Below are positions 19,242 through 59,814 of a DNA stretch of 64,000 nucleotides, piece by piece. A program made the translations under genes and the position numbers. The stretch covers positions 248,001-312,000 of the forward strand of contig WPIO01000211.1 in assembly GCA_009760855.2 (NCBI GenBank), given 5' to 3'. This DNA is from Cristatella mucedo (taxonomy: Eukaryota; Bryozoa; Phylactolaemata; Cristatellidae). Positions within the stretch are counted from its first letter, which is position 1. The number at the start of each line of letters is the position of its first letter. The notes under the pieces are model-generated. The model did no database searches. It was not told the origin of the DNA and worked only from the letters and a program-made list of their open reading frames with translations.

Positions 19242-19809
19242 CCTTCTGGAGGAGAAGGAATCGTCTGCAGGATCAGCTGCTGCTGCTGCTGCTGCACCTA
19301 CTGTCTGCAGTCCTCGACATGGCCGACTGGCAGTGTCCGCTCAGCAGCAGCAGCCGCCGCCGTTGGCCATGTCGGCGCCTGCTAACTCTCACCTTCGTGC
19401 GTTGGCCGAGGTGCCATCTTTGCCTCGGCACCCGGCCGCTTCTGCCACAGCAGCAGCGGACAGGCTCGATACGCCCACGCCCACTGTGGCGGGCCGCCGT
19501 CGGCCGTCGCCTTCAGCGGCGGCTGCAGATACCCGAAAGCCTCTGTCGTCGACGCCCGGCCGCGCGTCGCTCATCATGAACGAGCTGGTGCAGACCGAGG
19601 CGGACTACGTGGCGGCACTGCGGCTCGTCGTCGAGCACTACTTGCCCGTGTGCGAGTTTGCCGCCCCGCTGGAGCCGCTGCACGGCCAGGCGGCCGCCAT
19701 TTTTGGCAATGTCGAGCAGCTGTACGACTTCCATAGCGAGCTCTTCTTTGCCGAGCTCTGCTGCTGGCAGCACGACCCGTTCTCCGTTGGCAGGACCTTT
19801 CTCGAACAC
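19242..19809 (+). CDS. RhoGEF exon: start of the DH domain
   Basis: This encodes a low-complexity linker and then the first helices of a Dbl-homology (RhoGEF) domain, the catalytic unit that exchanges GDP for GTP on Rho-family GTPases. It starts after TTCGAATATTCGCAG with one base completing the split AG-C codon of the previous exon. About 108 codons of Ala/Gln/Pro/Ser-rich sequence come first. The DH domain starts with LIMNELVQTEADYVAAL (from about 19570), then HYLPVCEFAAPLEPLHGQ and AIFGNVEQLYDFHSELF (about 19696-19746). The exon ends FLEH in phase 0 before GTGAGT at 19810. TEADYV and IFGN with a following FH are typical of DH conserved region 1. The pattern most resembles PLEKHG4/quattro-type exchange factors, as judged from remembered family features. 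Confidence 0.9.
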
Positions 19810-20369
19810 GTGAGTTTGCGCCACAGCCTCGCGGCAGCAGCAGCAGCCGGCGAAGTTGCTGTGCTTGGTCTTGGCAGCCACGCATTGGTAAATGCCCGGT
19901 GGAGAGGCATCGTCGCAGGGCAGCCACACTATGCGGAAGCTTGGTCGGGGGGGGGGGGCCTCGAGGCCGCGCGCAGTGCGTCGAGGGCAGAGCAGAAGTC
20001 TTTACCTGCCACGGCCAGCGGCAGCAGCAGACTTGCTCAGACCGCGCCTTCCTTTGCCCGTGCACGTGCCACGTGTACGAGCCTGGGTCGAGCTACCTGC
20101 GCTGCTGCTTCGGTGCTATCGAGTGGCCATCGGTTCTCTGTCGGGCAACTCCCCGCGCAGCTGCTGCTGCTGCTTCTGCCGCCGCTACTGTGCAACCTGC
20201 CCATCGGGCTGGCAAGACTAGAAGTGCAGTGGTCACGGTCACGTGCTGCTGTGACTGCCATGCTGTCGTTTGGAATCGCTCCAGCCTTCCGTTACCTGCC
20301 TCCCGAATCTGAGAACACTCGTGGCCATGCAACATAATTGCCAGTAGTGTGTGGCATGGCCTATCGAAA

Positions 20370-20690
20370 TCTCGGCTTACATTCCTACGTCTACCCGAAA
20401 GTTGGAAGACCTAACCCTTCAATGTTGATTCGGCTAGCATTTAACCCATGCCGTGTACCAGTAATTTAGGCATACTAATCCAAAATAGCTTCTCATTAGA
20501 TGAGCACATTTCCTCTTCTGTCGAGTCGGCCAACTTTCAGCTAAGGAACGTTGCAAAAACTAGGGCCTGGTTTAAGACGATTGCAATTATAACCAAGCTA
20601 GTTTGCAGCATCAACGGACTTAGCTGCCACATCAATCAACCCACCTCTGTCCAGGTTTTACTGGCTTACTATCCGGCCTCTAATTGATTT
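20370..20690 (+). mobile_element. Decayed LINE reverse transcriptase fragment
   Basis: One frame reads NLGILIQNSFSLDEHISSSV and then ANFQLRNVAKTRAWFKTI. This is the post-catalytic RT block (NLGVIFDSSLSFDSHI-like, then FQLRNIAKIR-like) usual for CR1/L2-type elements. Frames are broken afterwards. Confidence 0.75.
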
Positions 20691-20733
20691 CAAGAGTCTC
20701 CGTCTGGCTTATAGTTCACTTTGTATGCTTATA

Positions 20734-20992
20734 AAAATAATAATAATACACTCGATAAAGCTCCCTCAGAGAACTCAATCTCTTTCTAGGCGCTTTACAT
20801 TTGCTGCAAAGGGAACCGCGATTGAATGGTTAGTAATATCATGCTTGTTAAACAACATGAATAACATGGTTAGGGGTGACATGCACAGGGGTCAGCATGC
20901 AAGTATGTTTAGTGGCAGCATGCAACAGCGTCAGCACGCATAAATGACGAATCTCAGGGACCCAATAAATGCTGTCATAAATAGATGTGTTA
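20734..20992 (-). mobile_element. LINE-A 3' tail, inverted
   Basis: AATAATAATACACTCGATAA, CTTTCTAGGCGCTTTACATT, GTTAGGGGTGACATGCACAG and CAGGGACCCAATAAATGCTG. Reverse complement of the LINE-A end. Confidence 0.9.
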
Positions 20993-21121
20993 TGATTAAT
21001 CTAATTGCTCTAGGCTATCCTAGTGACACTTGCAAACTCGAAATCCTCACTTTCACAATTGGCTTAAATGAAAAATAAAAATTAATAAATAATAAAATAA
21101 ATAATAAAAATAAATGAAGAA

Positions 21122-21285
21122 ACTCTAGCTGATTTAGCAGCCTCTTTTGTATAGCGACAGAAGAGCCTTTACGGCTATCACCACTGCTTGCAGCAGCGAT
21201 AAATGATCGCCCACCGCAGGATTCGAACCCACGACCTCGGAACGGAGGTCGGGAAAAGCAACCGCCTTATCTAGCATGCCTTCAA
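21122..21285 (-). mobile_element. SINE-A, well preserved
   Basis: Inverted: TAGCTGATTTAGCAGCCTCT, ACGGCTATCACCACTGCTTG, CGCAGGATTCGAACCCACGA (B box), then a CCGCCTTATCTAGCATGCC end. An AATAAATAATAAAATAAAT-rich patch lies just left of it. Confidence 0.85.
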
Positions 21286-21551
21286 CATCGAGTTTGCATG
21301 CAACGCTTGAGTCTGCGTGTTCTCTGCAGCCTTAAAAACCAGGCGCAAGGTATTTCAGCATCCAAAACTAAATGAAAGTCTGTGTGTGCTTTGTTAAAAT
21401 AAATATTGCTGTAAAAATTTTGCCCTCAATGTTTGCAACACATTGGAAACGTTACGGCTGTGACTGCTGTCATGCTATGAGCTACCTCAAGCTGTATTTG
21501 TCAGAATATGAACAGGTTGAGATTGCTGTGGCAATGTACCTACCTTTGCAG

Positions 21552-21641
21552 AAAACCAACTTTGAAGCATATGCTTTTTACATCAAAAACAAGCCAAGAA
21601 GCGACAGCATCATGTCACAGCACGGTACACAGTTGTTCAAG
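21552..21641 (+). CDS. RhoGEF exon: middle of the DH domain
   Basis: A 90-nt phase 0-0 exon of exactly 30 codons, bounded by TACCTTTGCAG and GTGAGG. It encodes KTNFEAYAFYIKNKPRSDSI followed by MSQHGTQLFK. YxxYIKNKPRSD followed by a histidine-glycine turn and a FF/LF-K end is a very characteristic stretch of the PLEKHG4/quattro/Trio-like DH group. It continues the FLEH end of the previous exon without a phase break. This is the most diagnostic short exon in the window and too well conserved to be chance. Confidence 0.92.
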
Positions 21642-21867
21642 GTGAGGCCAGCAAGTGGCGCATGCAGAGGCCGAGGTCAGAGGCCGTGGTGCGAAGCGAA
21701 GCTTTCGAGGATTCGTTTTATTTACGTGGAATATGCACCTGCCTCCAGACGCCACATGCTTTCAGCTTTGATGTGTCTGAGAGAGTGCTCAAAGTAAGAT
21801 GTCAACTGCTTCTCACCATAGAACCGATTCAATGTCGCTCAGGTTTTTGCCCCATGCTTAAGATGCC

Positions 21868-22005
21868 TGCCTCTAACCAAGGTCAAAGTGAATGCATTTT
21901 ATGACCGAGGTCGTGTACTCGAGCCCCGTGGCATATGTGAAGCGCCTGAATAGAGGTAAAGTTCTCTCAGGGTGCTGTGCAAATGAATTATGTTTATTTA
22001 TATAT
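21868..22005 (+). mobile_element. SINE-B, decayed 5' part
   Basis: ACCGAGGTCGTGTACTCGAG (B-box remnant), CATATGTGAAGCGCCTGAAT, TAAAGTTCTCTCAGGGTGCT, then ATGTTTATTTATATA. Confidence 0.75.
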
Positions 22006-22229
22006 AGTGTCTTTATGCCCCGGTGAGACTTCCTGCTGTGCGTGTGAACATCAACTAATCCCATTCATCACGGTGTGACAAAATGCTGCGAGCCTGCTTC
22101 GATCTGGCTTCAATGCTCAGTAGAAACTTTGCTTGGAGCCTAGCATGCTTTCTCAGGAATGAAAAGTGGCATGATGAAATAGGCTGCCTTCCAGGCTGTG
22201 CTGCCGTGTGTGCAGACAGAATTGCATCT

Positions 22230-22640
22230 TCAGCACCTGCAGGGCCGCATTGGTTGGTTCTGCCAGTTGCCTTTCTCATCGAATCGATTTGGAGATCGTC
22301 AATTTGGCTTACGAGTCGCTTCACTCGCCTGCACCAGCCTACCTGTCCACCTTGTTCCTTCAGTCACAGGCTCTTGTTCCACCAGCTGCTCAGAGGCTAG
22401 TCTTATGCAGCGGCCCCTCGCACTAAATTGAAATCTTTGTAATCGAGCCTTCAGCTCGTAGGTACCGAAAGTCTGGAATTCGTGTCCACCTTTGTCAGTA
22501 ACTGCCGTGACCTTGAATAATCTGATCTGCAGCTGTGGACACATCTATTCCGGTCAGCTTTCCTTTGCCACACTCTTCTCTTGTTCCCGTGTGCTCTGTG
22601 CATGATTCAATGCATGATTATATTCAATGCATAAACTACT
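22230..22640 (+). mobile_element. Decayed LINE C-terminal fragment
   Basis: Shifted frames give WLVLPVAFLIES and NLAYESLHSPAPAYLST. These correspond to [11 protein letters not shown] and [16 protein letters not shown] of the intact LINE-A copies. Many indels. Confidence 0.65.
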
Positions 22641-22756
22641 AGCCAGACATGTTTGCTTCAGCTTGCTGGCCTAAGCCTGATACTTGCTTCTGCCCTGATG
22701 CTTGATACCCTGCATCTCACTAACCCAGGGTATGGATTCTCTTGTAGCATGTTGTA

Positions 22757-22935
22757 GTGGTGAGCCGTAATGGCTCACTAGGTAAGGCTGTTTCTTTTCA
22801 TTACCTCTGCGCTGAGGTCGTGGGTTCGAATCCTATGGTGGGCGATCCTTTATCGCCACTGCAAGCGGTGGTGATAGTCGTAGAGGCTCTTCTGCTGCTA
22901 TACAAAAAGAGGCTGTTAAATCAGCAAGTATTTTT
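22757..22935 (+). mobile_element. SINE-A, well preserved
   Basis: A-box side AATGGCTCACTAGGTAAGGC, B box GGTTCGAATCC (22823-22833), body GGCGATCCTTTATCGCCACT, and end CTATACAAAAAGAGGCTGTT. Confidence 0.9.
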
Positions 22936-22959
22936 TTATTTTTTTTTAGTCAAGTTACA

Positions 22960-23040
22960 ATGCCCCAGGATAGAGATCGAGCTCTCTTCAGGTGCTATGC
23001 AAACGACCTATTGCTATTATTAATATTAATTTTATTATTA
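22960..23040 (+). mobile_element. LINE-A 3' tail, short
   Basis: CCCAGGATAGAGATCGAGCT, CTCTTCAGGTGCTATGCAAA, then ATT-rich end. Confidence 0.6.
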
Positions 23041-23159
23041 TTATGCTTATAAGGATCCAAGTTTGTGCTGCAGAATGTGAAGCATTTGTTTTGCAGAAAT
23101 CGCAGTTTCGTCACTGGCAGAGTCCTGCATATCCTAGCCCATGAAGAAAGTTGGCTCCT

Positions 23160-23234
23160 TTAGTCAGATAATTGCATGTCTTATAATAATAATAATATTG
23201 CACTTGATTAGTCAGATAATTGCATGTCTTATAA
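23160..23234. repeat. Micro-insertion between 26-bp direct repeats
   Basis: Two identical 26-bp direct copies (23161-23186 and 23209-23234, both starting TAGTCAGATAATTGCATG) flank 22 bases. Those bases begin TAATAATAATATTGCACTT and match the inverted extreme 3' end of LINE-A. See finding. Confidence 0.85.
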
Positions 23235-23723
23235 ATTATTAGTATCATTATTAGTACTTTACTCCTGCCTCCTTCGGCTTTGGAGATCCTTGTAGAATCC
23301 TGTCTGTTCAGGCTTCGGGAGGTTATATTGTAGGGGCTCGTGCCTGCGGCAGGCGCACAAATGCCGATGAATTGTGATGGCCCCACAAACGTTTAATAGT
23401 AATGGCACGGCTGTATTGTATGCTGGCGAAGCAGATGAAATACGTGAAATACGTGCTTGCTGCTCCGGGGCACGTGCCGATAAGAGAGGAGAGAGTGTCT
23501 AGCGTTCGAACAGGCCGCCCCAAGAGGCAAGAAGTGGATTGCACGGCAACGATAGGTCACGTGCCTGCATGGAGCTTGCCCGGCATGTCGAATGTCGGCT
23601 GGGGTTGAACCACGTGATGGCGATAGCACGCCCACAATACGTATGGGTAGTTTATGGATTTGCTGTGTCTTATTGTGCCATCACTTCCCGCATGAGCGCA
23701 TTCATTGCATTTCGTATTTGCAG

Positions 23724-24143
23724 GCTAGGCAGCAGCAGCTGGCCGACCTCCTTGACCTTGGCAGCTACCTGCTTAAGCCAATCCAGCGGCTGGGCAAGTA
23801 TGCGCTCATTCTGCAGCAGCTCGTGAAGGAGTGCTCGGCCAGGGTGGAGGCGGCTCTCTTGCCCGACGGCATACGGCTTCGCGACCAGCTGCAGCAGGCC
23901 GAGGACATGGTGCGCTTCTGCCTTCGTCATGGTGACGACCTCTTGGCCCTGGACAGCTTGTATGAGTGTAGCATTGACCTGACCTTGCAAGGTCAACTGC
24001 TGAGGCAGGAACAGATGACAGTAACCAGGGACAAAAAGAAGACACAAGAGCAGGTGTTCCTCTTTGAGAAAGTCATCATCTTCAGCAAAATTAAGCGTGT
24101 TGAAAAGGGTCATGACCTCTACAAGTACAAGGAAAGCATTTCA
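23724..24143 (+). CDS. RhoGEF exon: end of DH, start of PH
   Basis: A 420-nt phase 0-0 exon (140 codons) between TTCGTATTTGCAG and GTAAGT. It completes the DH domain and opens the pleckstrin-homology domain, which usually positions the exchange factor at membranes. Conserved region 3 is visible as GSYLLKPIQRLGKYALILQQ (from 23760), the core helix that contacts the GTPase. It is followed by a helix with MVRFCLRHGDDLLALDSL, similar in layout to the FQLRHGNDLLAMD region of PLEKHG4-like proteins. PH strands follow: LQGQLLRQEQMTV, EQVFLFEKVIIFSKIKR and LYKYKESIS. The ORF upstream of 23724 is intron read-through. The minus-strand ORF 23670-24113 is a shadow. Confidence 0.93.
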
Positions 24144-24239
24144 GTAAGTCTAGCCATAATAATCGTCTAGTCCAACGATGTACTCAACCTAGCCCAGTAG
24201 TTTGGCAGTGGTAGCTAATGCCATATTGTGAGTTTTCAG

Positions 24240-24705
24240 TTTAATAATAGTAATTATATTATTATATTTGTATGACACCCTCAGGGAACCAAACTTCTTT
24301 CTAGACACTTTACCTGTGCTTTAAAGGAAATATATGGTGAGTCGTGATAGCATGCTAGGTAAAGTGGTTGTTTTTTTTACCTCAGTTCCGAGGTCATGGG
24401 TTCGAATCCTGCAGTGGGCGATCCTTTATCGCTGATGCAAGCAGTGGTGATAGCCGTTAACTCTCTTCTGTCGCTACACAAAAGAGGCTGCTAAATCAGC
24501 TAGCAAATCAGCTAGCATGTCAACACGGTTAGTGGTAGTATGTACAGTGTCAGCATCCATAGGCACACCAAGGACAAGTCACAAGGATCTAGCAAATGCA
24601 GTGAGGAACAGGACCTTTTTCAGTTCTTTTTAAAGGTCGTCAAGTTAGGGGATGCCGAGATGTCCTCATTCGAGGAGTGAGTTGCAGGTTTTATGAGCAT
24701 ACGAA
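24240..24705 (-). mobile_element. LINE-A 3' part, split by a SINE-A
   Basis: 24240-24336 is a decayed inverted tail (CACCCTCAGGGAACCAAACT, CTTTCTAGACACTTTACCTG). 24515-24705 continues with CGGTTAGTGGTAGTATGTAC and AGTTCTTTTTAAAGGTCGTC. The SINE-A at 24337 interrupts it. Confidence 0.75.
24337..24520 (+). mobile_element. SINE-A, nested in LINE-A
   Basis: GGTGAGTCGTGATAGCATGC start, GGTCATGGGTTCGAATCCTG (B box), GGCGATCCTTTATCGCTGAT, ACACAAAAGAGGCTGCTAAA. It ends with a short duplicated AATCAGCTAGCA. Confidence 0.85.
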
Positions 24706-24719
24706 TTGTGTGCTGATGC

Positions 24720-25468
24720 AATTGTATTTGTGACATCTCGTCTCGACTTCTGCAACTCACTGCTTACTGGCCTCCCAGCATGTGCGATCAGGCGATTGCA
24801 GCTGGTGCAAAACTCCGCAGCTAGGCTTGTCTGTCGTGAGCGTCGCAGTTGCCACATTACTCCACTTCTCGCCGACCTGCACTGGCTACCAGTCAAGCAA
24901 CGGATTGACTTCAAGGTTTTGACGCTCACTTTTGGGTCCCTTCATTCTATGGCTCCAGCCTATCTCTCTGACGTACTCCCCCATCAGGCCAAGCATCGTG
25001 CCACCCGCTTTTCGGAATCCAACAGTGTAGAAATACCTCGCACAAACCTCAAATCCTTTGGAGACCGTGCATTTGGTTCGTATGCTCCCAAAGCCTGGAA
25101 CTCCGTCCCGACCTGCGTCAGAACATCCCCTGACCTGACCACATTTAGGGGGAACTTGAAGACACACCTATTTAGGACAGCATTAAGTGGGTCCCTGTGA
25201 TTCGTCCTTCACGTGCTTATGCATGCTGACACTGCATGCTGCCACTAACCACATTTGCATGCTGACCCTGTGCATGCTGCCACTAACCACATTTGCATGC
25301 TGACCCTGTGCATGTCACCCCTAACCATGTTGTTCATCTTGTTTGTTTTTAAAGCATGATTTTACTTACCATTCAATTGCATTTCCCTTTGCAGCAAATG
25401 TAAAGCGCCTAGAAAGAGATTAAGTTCTCTGAGGGCGCTTTATCAAGTACATTATTATTATTATTATT
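24720..25468 (+). mobile_element. LINE-A, RT C-terminal part and full 3' end
   Basis: An open frame to 25200 encodes the C-terminal part of a CR1/L2-like reverse transcriptase: [57 protein letters not shown], and a [19 protein letters not shown] block. The untranslated tail has a 9-bp hairpin (TAAAGCGCC at 25401, GGCGCTTTA at 25434) and ends in (ATT)n. The palm catalytic motif is absent because the copy is 5'-truncated. It is nearly identical to the inverted copy at 25697-26425. An element remnant, not a host gene. Confidence 0.9.
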
Positions 25469-25681
25469 ATTTGTGTGCTGATGCTGTTCATGCTACCACT
25501 AATTATACTTGCATTCTGACCCAATGCATGTCACCCCTAACCATCTTATTCTTGTTGTTTATCAAGCATGATACCACTGACCATTCGATCGTCTTTCCTT
25601 TGCAGCAAATGTAAAGCGCCTAGAAAAATATTGAGTTCTATGAGGGTGATTTATCAAGTGTATTATTATTATTATTATTAT
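25469..25681 (+). mobile_element. Second LINE-A 3' tail, in tandem
   Basis: GCTGATGCTGTTCATGCTAC, GTCACCCCTAACCATCTTAT, AAATGTAAAGCGCCTAGAAA and TATGAGGGTGATTTATCAAG, then (ATT)n. It belongs to another LINE-A subtype than its neighbour (ACCATTCGATCG instead of ACCATTCAATTG). Confidence 0.85.
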
Positions 25682-25696
25682 CAAATTGATTGCCAA

Positions 25697-26425
25697 TCAA
25701 TAATGATAATAATAATAATGTACTTGATAAAGCGCCCTCGGAGAACTTAATCTCTTTCTAGGCGCTTTACATTTGCTGCAAAGGGAAATGCAATTGAATG
25801 GTAAGTAAAATCATGCTTGAAAAACAAACAAAACGAATAACATGGTTAGGGGCGACATGCACAGGGTCAGCATGCAAATGTGGTTAGTGGCAGCATGCAC
25901 AGTGTCAGCACGCATAAGCACATCAAGGACGAATTACAGGGATCCACTAAATGCTGTCCTAAATAGGTATGTCTTCAAGTTCCCCCTAAATGTGGTCAGG
26001 TCAGGGGATGTTCTGACGCAGGTCGGGACGGAGTTCCAGGCTTTGGGAGCATACGAACTAAATGCACGGTCTCCAAAGGATTTTAGGTTTGTGCGAGGTA
26101 TTTCTAGACTGTTGGATTCCGAAAAGCGGGTGGCACGATGCTTGGCCTGATGGGGGAGTATGTCGGAGAGATAGGCTGGAGCCATAGAATGAAGGGACCC
26201 AAAAGTGAGCGTCAAAACCTTGAAGTCAATCCGTTGCTTGACTGGTAGCCAGTGCAGGTCGGCGAGAAGTGGAGTAATGTGGCAACTGCGACGCTCACGA
26301 CAGACAAGCCTAGCTGCAGAGTTTTGCACCAGCTGCAATCGCCTGATCGCACATGCTGGGAGGCCAGTAAGCAGTGAGTTGCAGAAGTCGAGACGAGATG
26401 TCACGAATGCATGGACCAACTTAGA
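25697..26425 (-). mobile_element. LINE-A, RT C-terminal part, inverted copy
   Basis: On the minus strand, the frame 26419-25934 encodes the same RT C terminus as 24720-25200 with about five amino-acid differences. Both copies share [16 protein letters not shown] and [10 protein letters not shown], which other LINE-A copies lack. The hairpin and (ATT)n tail are at 25697-25790. With the plus copy it forms a long inverted repeat. Confidence 0.92.
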
Positions 26426-26858
26426 TGTCCATCAACTTGGTCTCTCTTCGGCCATTCTTGGCCATTATCCATAACTGTCTGATGTAAGGACATAAGGATC
26501 ATTACCATGCCCTGGCTAGCCAATCGTTAAAGGGCAGTGATGAGAGACTCAGTGAAGCTCCAGTCCGGTCGTAGCCCATCTATGCTTGGCCTATTTTCGA
26601 CTGCTCGAAGCTTGCCCGGAAGGAGGAGCAGGAGGGCTGATGTTTGCATGCTAGTTTTCGTTTGGCTGAATGATGTTTATCCTGAGGTTAAGGATTCGGT
26701 TCTCTCTGGGTGCTTGACACGAGTCTTATTACTACTGACACATTCGTGAGATTGGCTCGAATCACTTGGCTGCTTTGGCCATTTCGACAGTTGCATGTCT
26801 AACCGCTCGGCGGTACTTAATTGTAATGCCTCCCAAACATGGCCGACTCTCACTGTAG

Positions 26859-27195
26859 ATGCACAACGTCGGCCTGACGGAGACGGTACACGGCCTCGGT
26901 GTCGGCGGCAGCTTGGTTTTCGAGCTCTGGTACCAGCAGAGCGGCGGCCGTGGCGGCTCGCTCAGCTGGCTCATTGACGCTCCGACCCTGCAGTCGAAGA
27001 GCGCCTGGGTCAAGGACGTTGGTCGCCTGCTGTGGGCCCAAGCCAGGATGAGCAAGCAGAAGTTGCTGGCAGGACTTCCGCATTCATCTCAGGCGATCGC
27101 CGTGGCATTGCTGTCCAAGAAACGGCCTCCTCCTCAGAACCTCGGGGCCAGCACCGATGCCCAAGCTCCGGGGCTCCGGGGTCACGTGGCTGCAC
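26859..27195 (+). CDS. RhoGEF exon: end of the PH domain
   Basis: Starts in phase 0 after CTCTCACTGTAG and ends before a strong donor (GTAAGT at 27196) with one base of a codon left. It completes the PH domain: VGLTETVHGLGVGGSLVFEL (second-half strands), then the C-terminal helix AWVKDVGRLLWAQARMSKQK. That helix contains the near-invariant PH tryptophan (codon 27006-27008). The ETVHG..FELW and LLWxQA patterns match the PLEKHG4/quattro PH layout, where GLTE(N/T) and LLWRQA occur. The remaining 40 or so codons are Ala/Pro-rich tail. If not spliced at 27195, the frame would run to a stop at about 27299. The minus-strand ORFs are shadows. Confidence 0.9.
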
Positions 27196-28749: not shown

Positions 28750-28918
28750 AATGCTAGCTGATTTAACAGCCTCGTTTTGTATAGCGACAGAAGAGCCTTT
28801 ACGGCTATCACCACCGCTTGCAATGGCAATATAGGATCGCCCACCGCAGGATTCGAACCCATGACCTCGGGGCCGAGGTCGTGAAAAGCAACCACCTTAC
28901 CTAGTGAGCCATTACGGG
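28750..28918 (-). mobile_element. SINE-A, well preserved
   Basis: GCTAGCTGATTTAACAGCCT, ACGGCTATCACCACCGCTTG, CGCAGGATTCGAACCCATGA (B box), CTTACCTAGTGAGCCATTAC. Confidence 0.9.
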
Positions 28919-55667: not shown

Positions 55668-55735
55668 AAAGCGCTAGAGAGGGAGCTAGAAAGAGTGAGA
55701 GTGAGAGAGGGCGAGCGAGGAAGAGAAAGACGGAG
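55501..55735. repeat. GA-rich degenerate microsatellite
   Basis: GAGAGAGA, GAGAGCTAGAGA and GTGAGAGTGAGAG arrays with interruptions. Confidence 0.9.
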
Positions 55736-55977
55736 AATGTAGTTATAGGCAATTAGAAAGTTGTAGGAAGTTCCCTGCTCAAGTAAAATCGTTCCAAATT
55801 ACGTCCAATAGCCGACAATCATGGGCAGCTCTGTATTTTTTGAAGACGCGATAGCTCACTTTCCAGACAGACGAACCAAAGTCTTGTGAGCAACGTGATC
55901 GCAACGTTACCAGAACGGCAGACGATTGGTGACTGCCCCTCAGGCAGCATGGCTAAAGGAGTTTGCCAATGTCAGAA

Positions 55978-56083
55978 GTGTGAGCCGTGATGGCACACTA
56001 GGTAAGGTGGTTGCTTTCATGACCTCGGTCCCGAGAACGTGGGTTCGATTCCTGCGGTGGGCGATCCATTATCACCACTGCAG
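55978..56083 (+). mobile_element. SINE-A, 3'-truncated
   Basis: GTGAGCCGTGATGGCACACT, GTGGGTTCGATTCCTGCGGT, GGGCGATCCATTATCACCAC. It joins directly to an inverted LINE-B fragment. Confidence 0.85.
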
Positions 56084-56335: not shown

Positions 56336-56509
56336 AGTGAAGTAAAGTAGCTCAGTGTAAGTTTAATTTAAATGTAAGTTAGTGCCAGAGACAAGTTTCG
56401 TTATTGTCTAAGCATTTGCTGCATCCGGTCTCCGACAGGCCTTCGATCCAACAGTTGGGACCTTGATGGTCAGGGCCTCACGTGACCGTGCTGCACCAGC
56501 TCTTTTCAG

Positions 56510-56644
56510 AGGTGATGGGAAGCAGGAGCAGCACTATGTTCGAAGATGCCCAGACGCAGACGGAGCCGACACCGGGCGGTGGCCCCGAAGTGGCTGCTCT
56601 GAGTGGAGCCAGTGGAGGCTACGGTGGCGATGGTCAAAACCAGC

Positions 56645-56682
<38 letters not shown>

Positions 56683-57247
56683 GCGTTCTCTGTGCAACTG
56701 CTGAACGACAGCAGCACTCCGCTGTGCAGGGGCTACACGCTGATTGCCGTAGACGAGCAGCAACTTCTGAGGTTTGAGTGTGTAAGGCACAGCAGCGATC
56801 TGCCGAGCGCAATGGAAGAGCAGCTTCCGTTCGATGGAGCTCTTCCTCGTCCGGAAGCAGAAGCAGTCGATGACGCACGGCGCACGCAGCCGGCGCAGCA
56901 CGTGTCGTGGCAAGAGCCAATTAATTTTGAGTGGCCACAGCAGCAGCAGCAGCAGCAGCTCGACACTCGCACTCAAGACGGCAGCGCAGCAATGGCAGCT
57001 CCTCTGGGGCTCGCCACCGCCTCAGCTACTGCATCGGCGCCCCTGGCGCCGCCGGGCAGCACTCCGTGCCTACTGAGGGTGGCTGCAGTGCACGACTTGC
57101 GTGAGGTCGGACTCGAACCTGTGTCGCCGCCAAATACTCCATGTATATTCGCAGAAGCGGTGGCAGCGAAGGAGGCAGAGAGGAAGAACAATGAGGAGGG
57201 GGAGGAAGAGAGGTCTGATGCTGCCAAGGTCGCAGCCACCAGTGCAG
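56510..57247 (+). CDS. IRS-type PTB exon, copy 1, core deleted
   Basis: A 738-nt exon, phase 1 at both ends, between CAGCTCTTTTCAG and GTAGGC; open throughout (246 codons). It is homologous to the exon at 58307. It starts MGSRSSTMFEDAQTQTEPTP, then a Ser run from CAG repeats, then RAFSVQLLNDSSTPLCRGYT, the first strand and turn of an IRS-type phosphotyrosine-binding domain. RGY is then followed after only 12 residues by LRFEC, where copy 2 has 58. About 46 residues holding the middle strands and the expected phosphotyrosine-binding arginine are missing. The remaining helix is SSDLPSAMEEQLPFDG. A Gln/Ala-rich tail with VSPPNTPCIFAEAVAAKEAE and an acidic EEGEEERSDAAK end follow. The flanking intron is also duplicated. 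Loss of the core argues against phosphotyrosine binding; whether it is expressed is unknown. Confidence 0.7.
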
Positions 57248-57339
57248 GTAGGCTGTACTGCAGCTCCTGGTGCAGCTCTGATTTCTCTGTTTGAGCCCTG
57301 CTACAGTAATACCAATAATAAAAGTAATAAAAATAATAA

Positions 57340-57425
57340 TAGTAATAATAATGATACATTTGATGTGACTAGACTGTGGAGCTAATGTGGTCGTCTAATG
57401 AAGGTCGCTTGAAAACAGGACACCT
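57340..57425 (-). mobile_element. LINE-A RT fragment, short
   Basis: ACTGTGGAGCTAATGTGGTC and GTCTAATGAAGGTCGCTTGA match 63700-63760 of another LINE-A. It is preceded by AATAATAAAAGTAATAAAA. Confidence 0.65.
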
Positions 57426-57459
57426 ACATAATTAGTTTGTAATGCTTCTCACCATCTCT

Positions 57460-57690
57460 TTTTCACCCGTGTGTCTGCCTCCTCGTGTTCTCTCAGGTCC
57501 TGTACATAGACACTATGTTAGCTCGTTCTATTACTCTGCATGGAGACCGTTGGTTAGAAAAACGTCTGCTGTGCAGGTGCTAGAGTGTCTAGCTTGCTTC
57601 CACAATTATTATTTAAACCTCTCCCACCCCCCAGCTGCCGACTATGGCCCATCCTTTCCAGTCGCCCGAACTAACAGACTGAGATTGCAT
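57460..57690 (+). mobile_element. Decayed LINE-B C-terminal fragment
   Basis: CTCAGGTCCTGTACATAGAC, CATGGAGACCGTTGGTTAGA and GCTGCCGACTATGGCCCATC parallel 48255-48415. 57691-57951 right of it is unassigned, with three loose copies of CACTCCAGTTGCTGC. Confidence 0.7.
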
Positions 57691-57951
57691 CACAATGCTG
57701 CCACTCCAGTTGCTGCTGCTCACATTATGCCACTATCATAACACTCCAGTTGCTGCCCCTGCAGTACGCGCCTTCCCACAGAGGTGCAGTCCATCCCCAG
57801 AGGTACCTAATTACTTGCCCAATTCCCCTTTTGCTTGCACTCCAGTAGCTACCCATTATAATGCTGCATATTTAATAGCTGCTAGAGGTTTGAGCTCCGA
57901 TTGCATGTTCTCGTTGTTACCAAGTCGCGTGACAAGTTTCTTTGCTGACTT

Positions 57952-58207
57952 AATTTTTATAATAATGACATTCTCTATGAAGCGCTCTCAGAGAACTCAA
58001 TCTCTTTCTAAGCGCTTTACATTTACTGCAAAGGAAACACGATCGAATGGTTAGTGGTCGCATGCTCAATAAACCAACAAAACATAAAAAAATAAACAAA
58101 TAAAAATAGATAAGAATCACAGGGCTCCACTAAATGCTGTGATAAATAGCTGCATGTATAGTTTCTTTTCAAATGTGCTCAGGTCGGGGGTGGGGATGTC
58201 GTAACTT
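57952..58207 (-). mobile_element. LINE-A 3' part, inverted
   Basis: AAGCGCTCTCAGAGAACTCA, CTTTCTAAGCGCTTTACATT, GATCGAATGGTTAGTGGTCG, CCACTAAATGCTGTGATAAA. Confidence 0.88.
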
Positions 58208-58306
58208 AACGATTTGCTGTGCCCGATCTCGGATAGGCTTTTGATCAGAGAGTTTGAATCTTGCTCGGCAAGGTCTCACGTGACCCGTTGCATCTGCTTC
58301 TTTCAG

Positions 58307-59619
58307 AGGTCATAGGGTGCTGGAGCAGCACTCTGTCTGCAGAGACCAGCAGCTCTGCCGGTGCCCAGATGCAGGCACAGCCGACGTCATGCAGTGGCCC
58401 CGAAATGGGAGATCAGAGCAGCACCCTGCCAGGCGTCGGGAAAATAAAGGGGCAAAACAGAAAACAAAAAAGCAGTGGTCAAACCTGTGGTTGCTGTGGT
58501 TGCTGCGATTGCTGCTGCAGCTGCTGTTGCTGCTGCAGCTGCAGTTGCTGCTGCAGCTACAGTTGCTGCAGCTGCAGCAACTGCAGCAGTGCAGGCAGAG
58601 TGTTCCACGTGCAGTGGCTGGACGACTGCGGGGCTCCACTGGTCAGGGGCTACCTGGAGGTCACCTCAGACTGGCTAGTGCTTAGTCTCGACGACGGTGC
58701 TGGAAGCAGCAAAAGTGTCGTGTCCGAGTGGCCGCTCAGCTCCATCGGCCACATCGGCTTCTCTGATGAGGGACATTTCGTGCTCTTATGCAGCCGTCCG
58801 GGCTCTGGCAAGCCGAAGGTTTTGAAGTTCGAATGTGCATGCAGCGGCGAGCTGTATCACACCATAGACAAGCGCCTGCGCGAGAGAAATGCTCTTCCGG
58901 CGGAAGCCGTCAATGTTGAGCAGCCCTTGCAGCCACAAAGATGGCGTCAGCAGCAAACTCTCAGGCGCCCACAGAAGCTCGTAGCTAGAGCCGACGACAA
59001 CGGGGCTACAGCTCCATCGGCGCTCGCGACTGAGGCTGCAGGGGAGGCGATGCAGCAGGTGCCAGGAGGTACTAAGCGCGTACCGAGGGCGGCAGCAGCA
59101 GCGACAGCTGGAGCAGTGGTTGTGGTGGTGGCAGCAGCAGCGGCAGTGTCAGCAGCAGCGGCAGTGTCAGCAGCAGCGGCAGTGTCAGCAGCAGCGGCAG
59201 TGGCAGCAGCAGCGGCAGTGGCAGCAGCAGCGGCAGCAGCAGCAGCAGCAGCGGTAGCAGCAGCGGCAGTGGCAGCAGCAGCGGCCGTAGCGGCTGCAGC
59301 GGCTGCAGCGGCGGCGGCAGCGGCACGGAGGACACTCACTATGCTGGACTCCGGCCGAAGCAGCTGCCACAAACTCCGCTTACCTTTGCAGCTGCAACAA
59401 GCGCCAGCGTACCATCATCACCATACGGTGCATCCAGCTGCATGGATGCACTGCAGCAGCAGCAGCCACACCTGATGCAGCCACCAATACCCAGCCAGCT
59501 CGGCCATCAGCTGCACTATGATCAGCTCAGTCTCCAGCATGACCATGGAGAGTTTGAGGACAAGGAGAAGGTGGAGGAGGCAGAGAGAGCTACTGCTGAG
59601 GTGGCAGCCACTATTGCAG
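58307..59619 (+). pseudogene. IRS-type PTB exon, copy 2, frame change
   Basis: Between CTGCTTCTTTCAG and GTAGGA, phase 1 at the start. In the first frame a Cys-rich stretch from CTG repeats precedes a full IRS-type PTB domain. It reads RVFHVQWLDDCGAPLVRGYL, EVTSDWLVLSLDDG, VVSEWPLSSIGHIGFSDEGH, LLCSRPGSGKPKVLKFEC and ELYHTIDKRLRER (about 58595-58890). The pattern resembles FRS2/DOK-type domains, which bind NPxpY motifs on receptors; an arginine (LCSR) sits where a binding arginine is expected. After about 59070 the plausible coding frame shifts by one. The first frame becomes pure Ala/Val in the GCAGCG array. The shifted frame gives Ser/Gly, then GTEDTHYAGLRPKQLPQTPL and ERATAEVAATIAG, matching the end of copy 1. 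The exon is 1313 nt, not a multiple of three. It may be pseudogenic, an assembly error, or contain an unseen splice. Confidence 0.7.
59090..59330. repeat. GCA/GCG trinucleotide array inside the PTB exon
   Basis: GCAGCAGCAGCGGCAGTGTC-type units repeat, coding Ala/Val in one frame and Ser/Gly in the next. This is the likely site of the frame change. Confidence 0.95.
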
Positions 59620-59814
59620 GTAGGAGCTTTGCCGGTGCCCGGCCGAGCTCTGCCTTCTGTATAGAGGCGCTGCTAGGTGCTGCTCTGCATGGTTTCAGCT
59701 TGAGCCTCAGCTTAATCTTTTTGTATGCACAAACTTTGTTACGAATGACATTTATGTATATGCTGGCACAGATGCTGGTGAATCTATTATCCATACATGT
59801 GCACCAGCATGTAT

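Follow-up and report, generated by a model that had tools for sequence, protein, structure and literature searches.

What can a gene do with two neighbouring exons that are copies of each other when neither copy is complete? The question is raised by a window of 64,000 nucleotides from the bryozoan Cristatella mucedo, on the plus strand of which two homologous exons follow one another. The first, exon A, is without the core of its PTB domain, and the second, exon B, is without an ATG at the matching place. The explanation that we favour, and hold to be moderately probable, is that the two follow each other as exons within one FRS2-like adaptor gene, formed by exon duplication and complementary loss and joined by splicing of A to B.

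Exon A (56510..57247) is 738 nt long, a multiple of three, and is open over 245 codons. Its ATG (56515..56517) begins the sequence MGSRSST, which is followed by a PTB remnant, a Ser/Gln/Glu-rich tail and a phase 1 donor, GTAGGC (57248..57253). The remnant, placed by alignment at 56680..56826 with approximate ends, consists of the first strand (AFSVQLLND...CRGY) and the last-strand region (LLRFEC), and also takes in a stretch that aligns with the C-terminal helix of exon B. The intron between the exons spans 1059 nt (57248..58306). Exon B (58307..59619) measures 1313 nt, two more than a multiple of three, and ends at the donor GTAGGA (59620..59625). It carries an open IRS-type PTB domain, closest to FRS2/SNT (58594..58905), and a GCN repeat tract (59128..59325). 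The PTB frame of B stays open until a stop at codon 389; the tail of B is homologous to the tail of A but lies in another frame than the PTB of B, and the alignment puts the loss of frame where the GCN tract ends on its 3' side, as it does at a related locus, C240.

The homology of the two exons had been proposed in a preliminary description of this DNA, and it holds also outside low-complexity sequence: A and B are 68% identical over 198 nt including upstream intron, 74% over 90 nt including the first PTB strand and 76% over 71 nt at the donor. The matching splice sites were likewise correctly read. Exon A is preceded by ...CTCTTTTCAG and exon B by ...CTTCTTTCAG; both have AG acceptors and start with AGGT, and their 3' ends read GCAG/GTAGGC and GCAG/GTAGGA. 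Both exons had been said to begin in phase 1; the phase 1 junctions stand, but the ATG of A lies five bases inside the exon, so that a coding phase at the exon start is meaningful in B alone. The lesions are as described, with A in an open frame and B keeping its PTB and losing the frame afterwards. By hand count, the interval from GY to FEC is 12 residues in A and 58 in B, leaving 46 residues of the PTB core missing from A, and by alignment with the modelled B the gap takes in strands three to six.

A CTCACGTGACC-like stretch lies about 22-33 nt 5' of each acceptor (56477-56487 and 58275-58285 in the window) and is common to most loci of the family; it may be a branch point or an E-box. Further upstream of exon A, a block at about 55700-55980 on the plus strand is some 73-76% alike at two other loci, C124b and C624c, and is possibly a promoter or 5' UTR. 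A search for a 5' exon upstream of A led to this shared block (55.70-55.98 kb) and defined no donor. A 3' exon common to both was sought with a C-terminal motif of the FRS2 type, which gave no convincing match, and neither a 5' UTR exon nor a 3' terminal exon was identified for the pair.

How secure is the PTB assignment? From exon B alone it is weak. Pfam IRS matches window B at 13.3-16.9 bits, below the cut-off of 22; a long-frame scan at E<=0.1 did not report the domain, and B alone gave no match at E<=1 with phmmer against the PDB or with NCBIfam. The family as a whole is more informative. Ten of 14 members match Pfam IRS at E<=0.1, and the PDB profile relied on here was built from the 13 divergent paralogues with the FRS2 orthologue left out, since a profile including the orthologue gives much stronger PDB matches. 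Against the PDB at E<=10 the 13-paralogue profile finds five sequences, namely two of FRS3 (best E=3.2e-4), two of FRS2 (best 6.4e-3) and, weakly, DOK1. A single-sequence AlphaFold model of window B (pLDDT 85.2) has seven strands and a C-terminal helix, and its first PDB match is the SNT PTB, 1xr0_B (1.1e-5), in a near tie with the PH domain of TBC1D23 (1.2e-5); DOK1 is again among the weaker matches. The PTB fold is thus clear in the model, and the kinship with FRS2 comes mainly from sequence. Together, profile and model bear out the IRS-type PTB named in the preliminary description. In the alignment, the first arginine of the PTB pocket, whose place we take from IRS-1, is missing in 13/13 paralogues, in two of them by a gap.

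Searching the genome (572 Mb, 688 contigs) with the PTB of B, and scoring 15 candidates, gave a member count that is a lower bound: PTB exons are found in at least 14 places at E<=0.1, with no stop inside any match. They comprise one FRS2 orthologue and 13 divergent relatives, four of which, the window copy included, lie on the contig of the window, C124. The orthologue (C331) starts with MGCVGS, matches FRS3 over its PTB at 1.1e-27 and has five YxN motifs of the GRB2 type. Besides it, six copies stand alone (C624b, C124c, C231a, C652, C99 and C681), as judged from an upstream flank of about 3.5-3.9 kb searched for A. Three YxN motifs each are present in C124c and C231a and none in the other four of these six. 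None was found in ten tandem-class sequences scanned, a set in which the window tail was read by eye and the B exons of C240 and C624a were not counted. The contig C231 (102.6 kb) shares two PTB loci with the 20-40 kb region of C124, in inverted matching order and with blocks of 82-95% identity; it may be a segmental duplicate or a diverged haplotype, in which case the C231 copies would not be independent.

Is the exon pair peculiar to the window? An A exon lies upstream of a B exon at six loci: the window, C124b, C240, C624a, C624c and C124a. A genome search with the body of A found the first five of these at E<0.001, each with a B exon 1-4 kb downstream in the same orientation, and nothing further better than E=0.1 except a second piece of C624a. 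The sixth A exon, in C124a, was found by local search only, and further A exons of reduced size may thus have escaped detection; its 129 nt hold the start, the anchor, about 40 residues and the same GCAG/GTAGG donor. In C240 most of A is replaced by a long GGC repeat and the frame is lost. The first PTB strand is retained in four A exons (window, C124b, C624a and C624c), and all four have the same core deletion. The idea of a duplication caught decaying, put forward in the preliminary description, consequently does not fit A, where a deletion shared by four exons in open frames is not local decay; it fits the window copy in part, since the tail of B is out of frame there, by a shift that C240 shares.

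The start codons follow the same division. An ATG is present in 6/6 A exons and, at the matching place, in 0/6 partner B exons, which have ATA (window, C124b, C624a and C624c), AAG (C240) or ACC (C124a). The stand-alone copies, FRS2 orthologue included, have an ATG in 7/7 cases, although in C681 it does not share a frame with the PTB. The exception is C231b, which has two N-terminal units, neither with an ATG, and no A within about 8 kb upstream. Fisher's test of the pattern gives p=0.005, for rows that are related and in which one ancestral loss would have the same effect. The A exons begin with MGSRSS (5/6) or MGCRSS (1/6), which we take, by pattern, to be myristoylation sequences. Over the first eight codons the A exons differ among themselves at 19/120 residues and the B exons at 55/120. 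The adjoining intron, compared without gaps, shows a parallel contrast (48/345 base differences on the A side and 171/345 on the B side), so the A side may be less diverged overall, which weakens the argument for the anchor from these codons.

With the start and anchor in A only, and the PTB in a B that has no ATG at any of the six loci, the pattern suggests that A and B are spliced together in series. Two other uses of the pair can be weighed against it. The preliminary description considered isoforms with and without the PTB. In the form without it, A would be joined directly to a 3' exon common to both forms, with B left out, and yield an anchored protein that lacks the domain. The phases would allow this, since A and the intact B exons are multiples of three between phase 1 junctions and the frame is kept if B is skipped; the claim that such an exon can be left out without a frame shift holds at those loci and fails for B of the window, with its two surplus bases. 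Isoforms would also need a 3' exon, and none was found; B lacks its own ATG at the corresponding position, and the five A exons of the genome search all stand beside a B. We regard this reading as improbable. The two exons might also belong to separate adjacent genes, each with its own 5' exon, as the separate acceptors and the conserved upstream intron stretch of each exon would permit. The missing ATG of all six tandem B exons, the mere 1059 nt between A and B in the window and the 129-nt A of C124a, which would form no domain alone, make this highly improbable.

When did the pair arise? A tree was made from short shared blocks in 20 rows, of which C240_A, C124a_A, C124a_B, C231b_N, C624b and C231a lack the second block. 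The six A exons form one clade (support 97) and eight B-type units another (83). The same inner groups recur in both: window, C124b and C240 (99 in A and 97 in B) and the two C624 loci (100 in each). This agreement points to one exon duplication, which probably came before the pair spread. Over much of the PTB and tail, window B resembles C240 more closely than C124b, and just upstream of the exon it is nearer to C124b; such mixed affinity suggests conversion or recombination between family copies.

Are the members of this family still genes? They could instead be the remains of pseudogenes: the tandem family might be dead or dying as a whole, the window pair one of its relics and the A/B patterns a legacy of an earlier functional gene. 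B is broken at 4/6 tandem loci (window, C240, C624a and C624c) and is open and a multiple of three in C124b, C124a and C231b. B of C240 has the same tail offset as window B, with nearly the same out-of-frame residues. An assembly error was rejected on this ground as the simple explanation of the frame loss in the window; the shared shift is probably real and probably old, and the window copy partly decayed, although independent mutation to the same offset is possible. Selection, as measured by dN/dS, is weakly below 1 and near neutral: pairs of A exons give 0.63-0.95 (3/6 with p<0.05), with a non-significant 0.95 for the window and its nearest relative, C124b, and pairs of B exons give 0.49-0.91 (6/21 with p<0.05).

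Against a dead family stand the frames of A, which are open at 5/6 loci (C240 is broken), with lengths of 738, 702, 891, 849 and 129 nt that are all multiples of three. In a neutral simulation with substitutions only and hand-set branch lengths, four stop-free full-length A frames had a probability of 0.0008 or 0.00005, depending on the root, the latter value being one of 20,000 runs. Gaps in A are multiples of three in 12/12 cases for two close pairs (4/13 in flanks) and in 17/25 for four distant pairs (7/37 in flanks), although many lie in CAG-type repeats, where slippage yields multiples of three anyway. Moreover, two loci are open across the joined A and B, over 608 and 406 codons. We therefore consider pseudogene remains rather unlikely as an account of the whole family. 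The window locus is best taken as one of its members that has partly decayed, at least two tandem loci of the family being still open.

Under the favoured explanation, splicing of A to B in one gene, an ancestral exon with a start, a myristoylation signal, a PTB and a tail would have been duplicated in tandem. The start and lipid anchor would have been retained in A, which lost the core of its PTB, and the PTB in B, which lost its start. Splicing from phase 1 to phase 1, with the joint ...SA-E-VIG..., would then give a single membrane-anchored PTB protein, and the pair as a whole would have been copied to at least six places. We infer from sequence that the product may be spliced, translated, myristoylated and able to bind a receptor. 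In the window, where the tail of B would have left the frame later, the result would be an anchor and PTB with a foreign tail, or no product.

Other features of the window lie apart from the pair. Exons of a Dbl-family RhoGEF occupy 19570-27060 on the plus strand, with parts of the DH domain near 19.57-19.81 and 23.72-23.84 kb and an adjoining PH domain from 24.0 kb to a probable end, by motif, near 26.9 kb; for the 23.7-24.1 kb exon the closest sequences in the PDB are those of RhoGEF 25, Trio and DBS. The PTB exons are probably not the 3' end of this gene (19.5-27.1 kb), given the gap of about 29 kb, in which no linking exon was seen, and the occurrence of the PTB family elsewhere as loci of its own. 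Many copies of short repeats are present at 24.7-26.4 and 46.5-48.6 kb, alongside fragments that look to us, by eye, like LINE reverse-transcriptase tails. ARAGORN reports a tRNA-Lys on the minus strand (28839-28918); Rfam reported nothing in the window at gathering score, and the element is perhaps a tRNA-derived repeat.

Which known adaptors does the pair resemble? FRS2 is known from animals in one or two copies, and the C. mucedo genome would thus hold an expansion of it. Among the additional copies that were scanned, both those in tandem and those that stand alone, most have lost YxN. FRS2 and FRS3 (SNT-1 and SNT-2) share with the pair an N-terminal MGxxxS start, one IRS-type PTB and a low-complexity tail. 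They differ in that the pair has the start and anchor and the PTB on two duplicated exons, and in that the tandem class is without the YxN motifs of the orthologue, a lack shared by most stand-alone copies. The boldest reading of this absence is a decoy or non-GRB2 role: intact tandem loci might produce membrane-tethered FRS2-like PTB proteins devoid of GRB2-docking tyrosines, which would compete with FRS2 for receptors. This is a proposal that we think clearly unlikely; if true, the decoys would be a genome-encoded brake on FGFR-type signalling, one exon's functions being split over two. In FRS2 the myristoylation sequence precedes the PTB, and the binding of this PTB to FGFR is independent of phosphotyrosine (PMC3250484). 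Bilateria are the only group from which FRS2 sensu stricto is reported, and the DOK/IRS adaptors are described in the same study as having an N-terminal PH domain (PMC7260276). DOK and IRS belong to the same PTB superfamily as the pair, and DOK1 is among the weaker matches; a three-frame scan of the plus strand at 52-64 kb found no PH domain at E<=0.1, and the same scan also missed the PTB of B.

The pair is also comparable to tandem exon duplication, and to duplication, degeneration and complementation, as its duplicate exons retain their splice phase and show complementary loss. A limited search of the literature, by titles, found none describing such a split arrangement. Textbook tandem exon duplicates are alternative, mutually exclusive exons, of which U2AF1 is reportedly an example; A and B, by contrast, apparently serve one after the other in the same product, and even the start codon has been allotted to one of them. 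Complementary loss after duplication is as a rule discussed for regulatory elements or entire genes. In the present case it can be seen between two exons of what is apparently a single gene, one with the start and anchor and the other with the binding domain, and since six related loci stand at different stages of intactness, the order and outcome of the process can be read directly.
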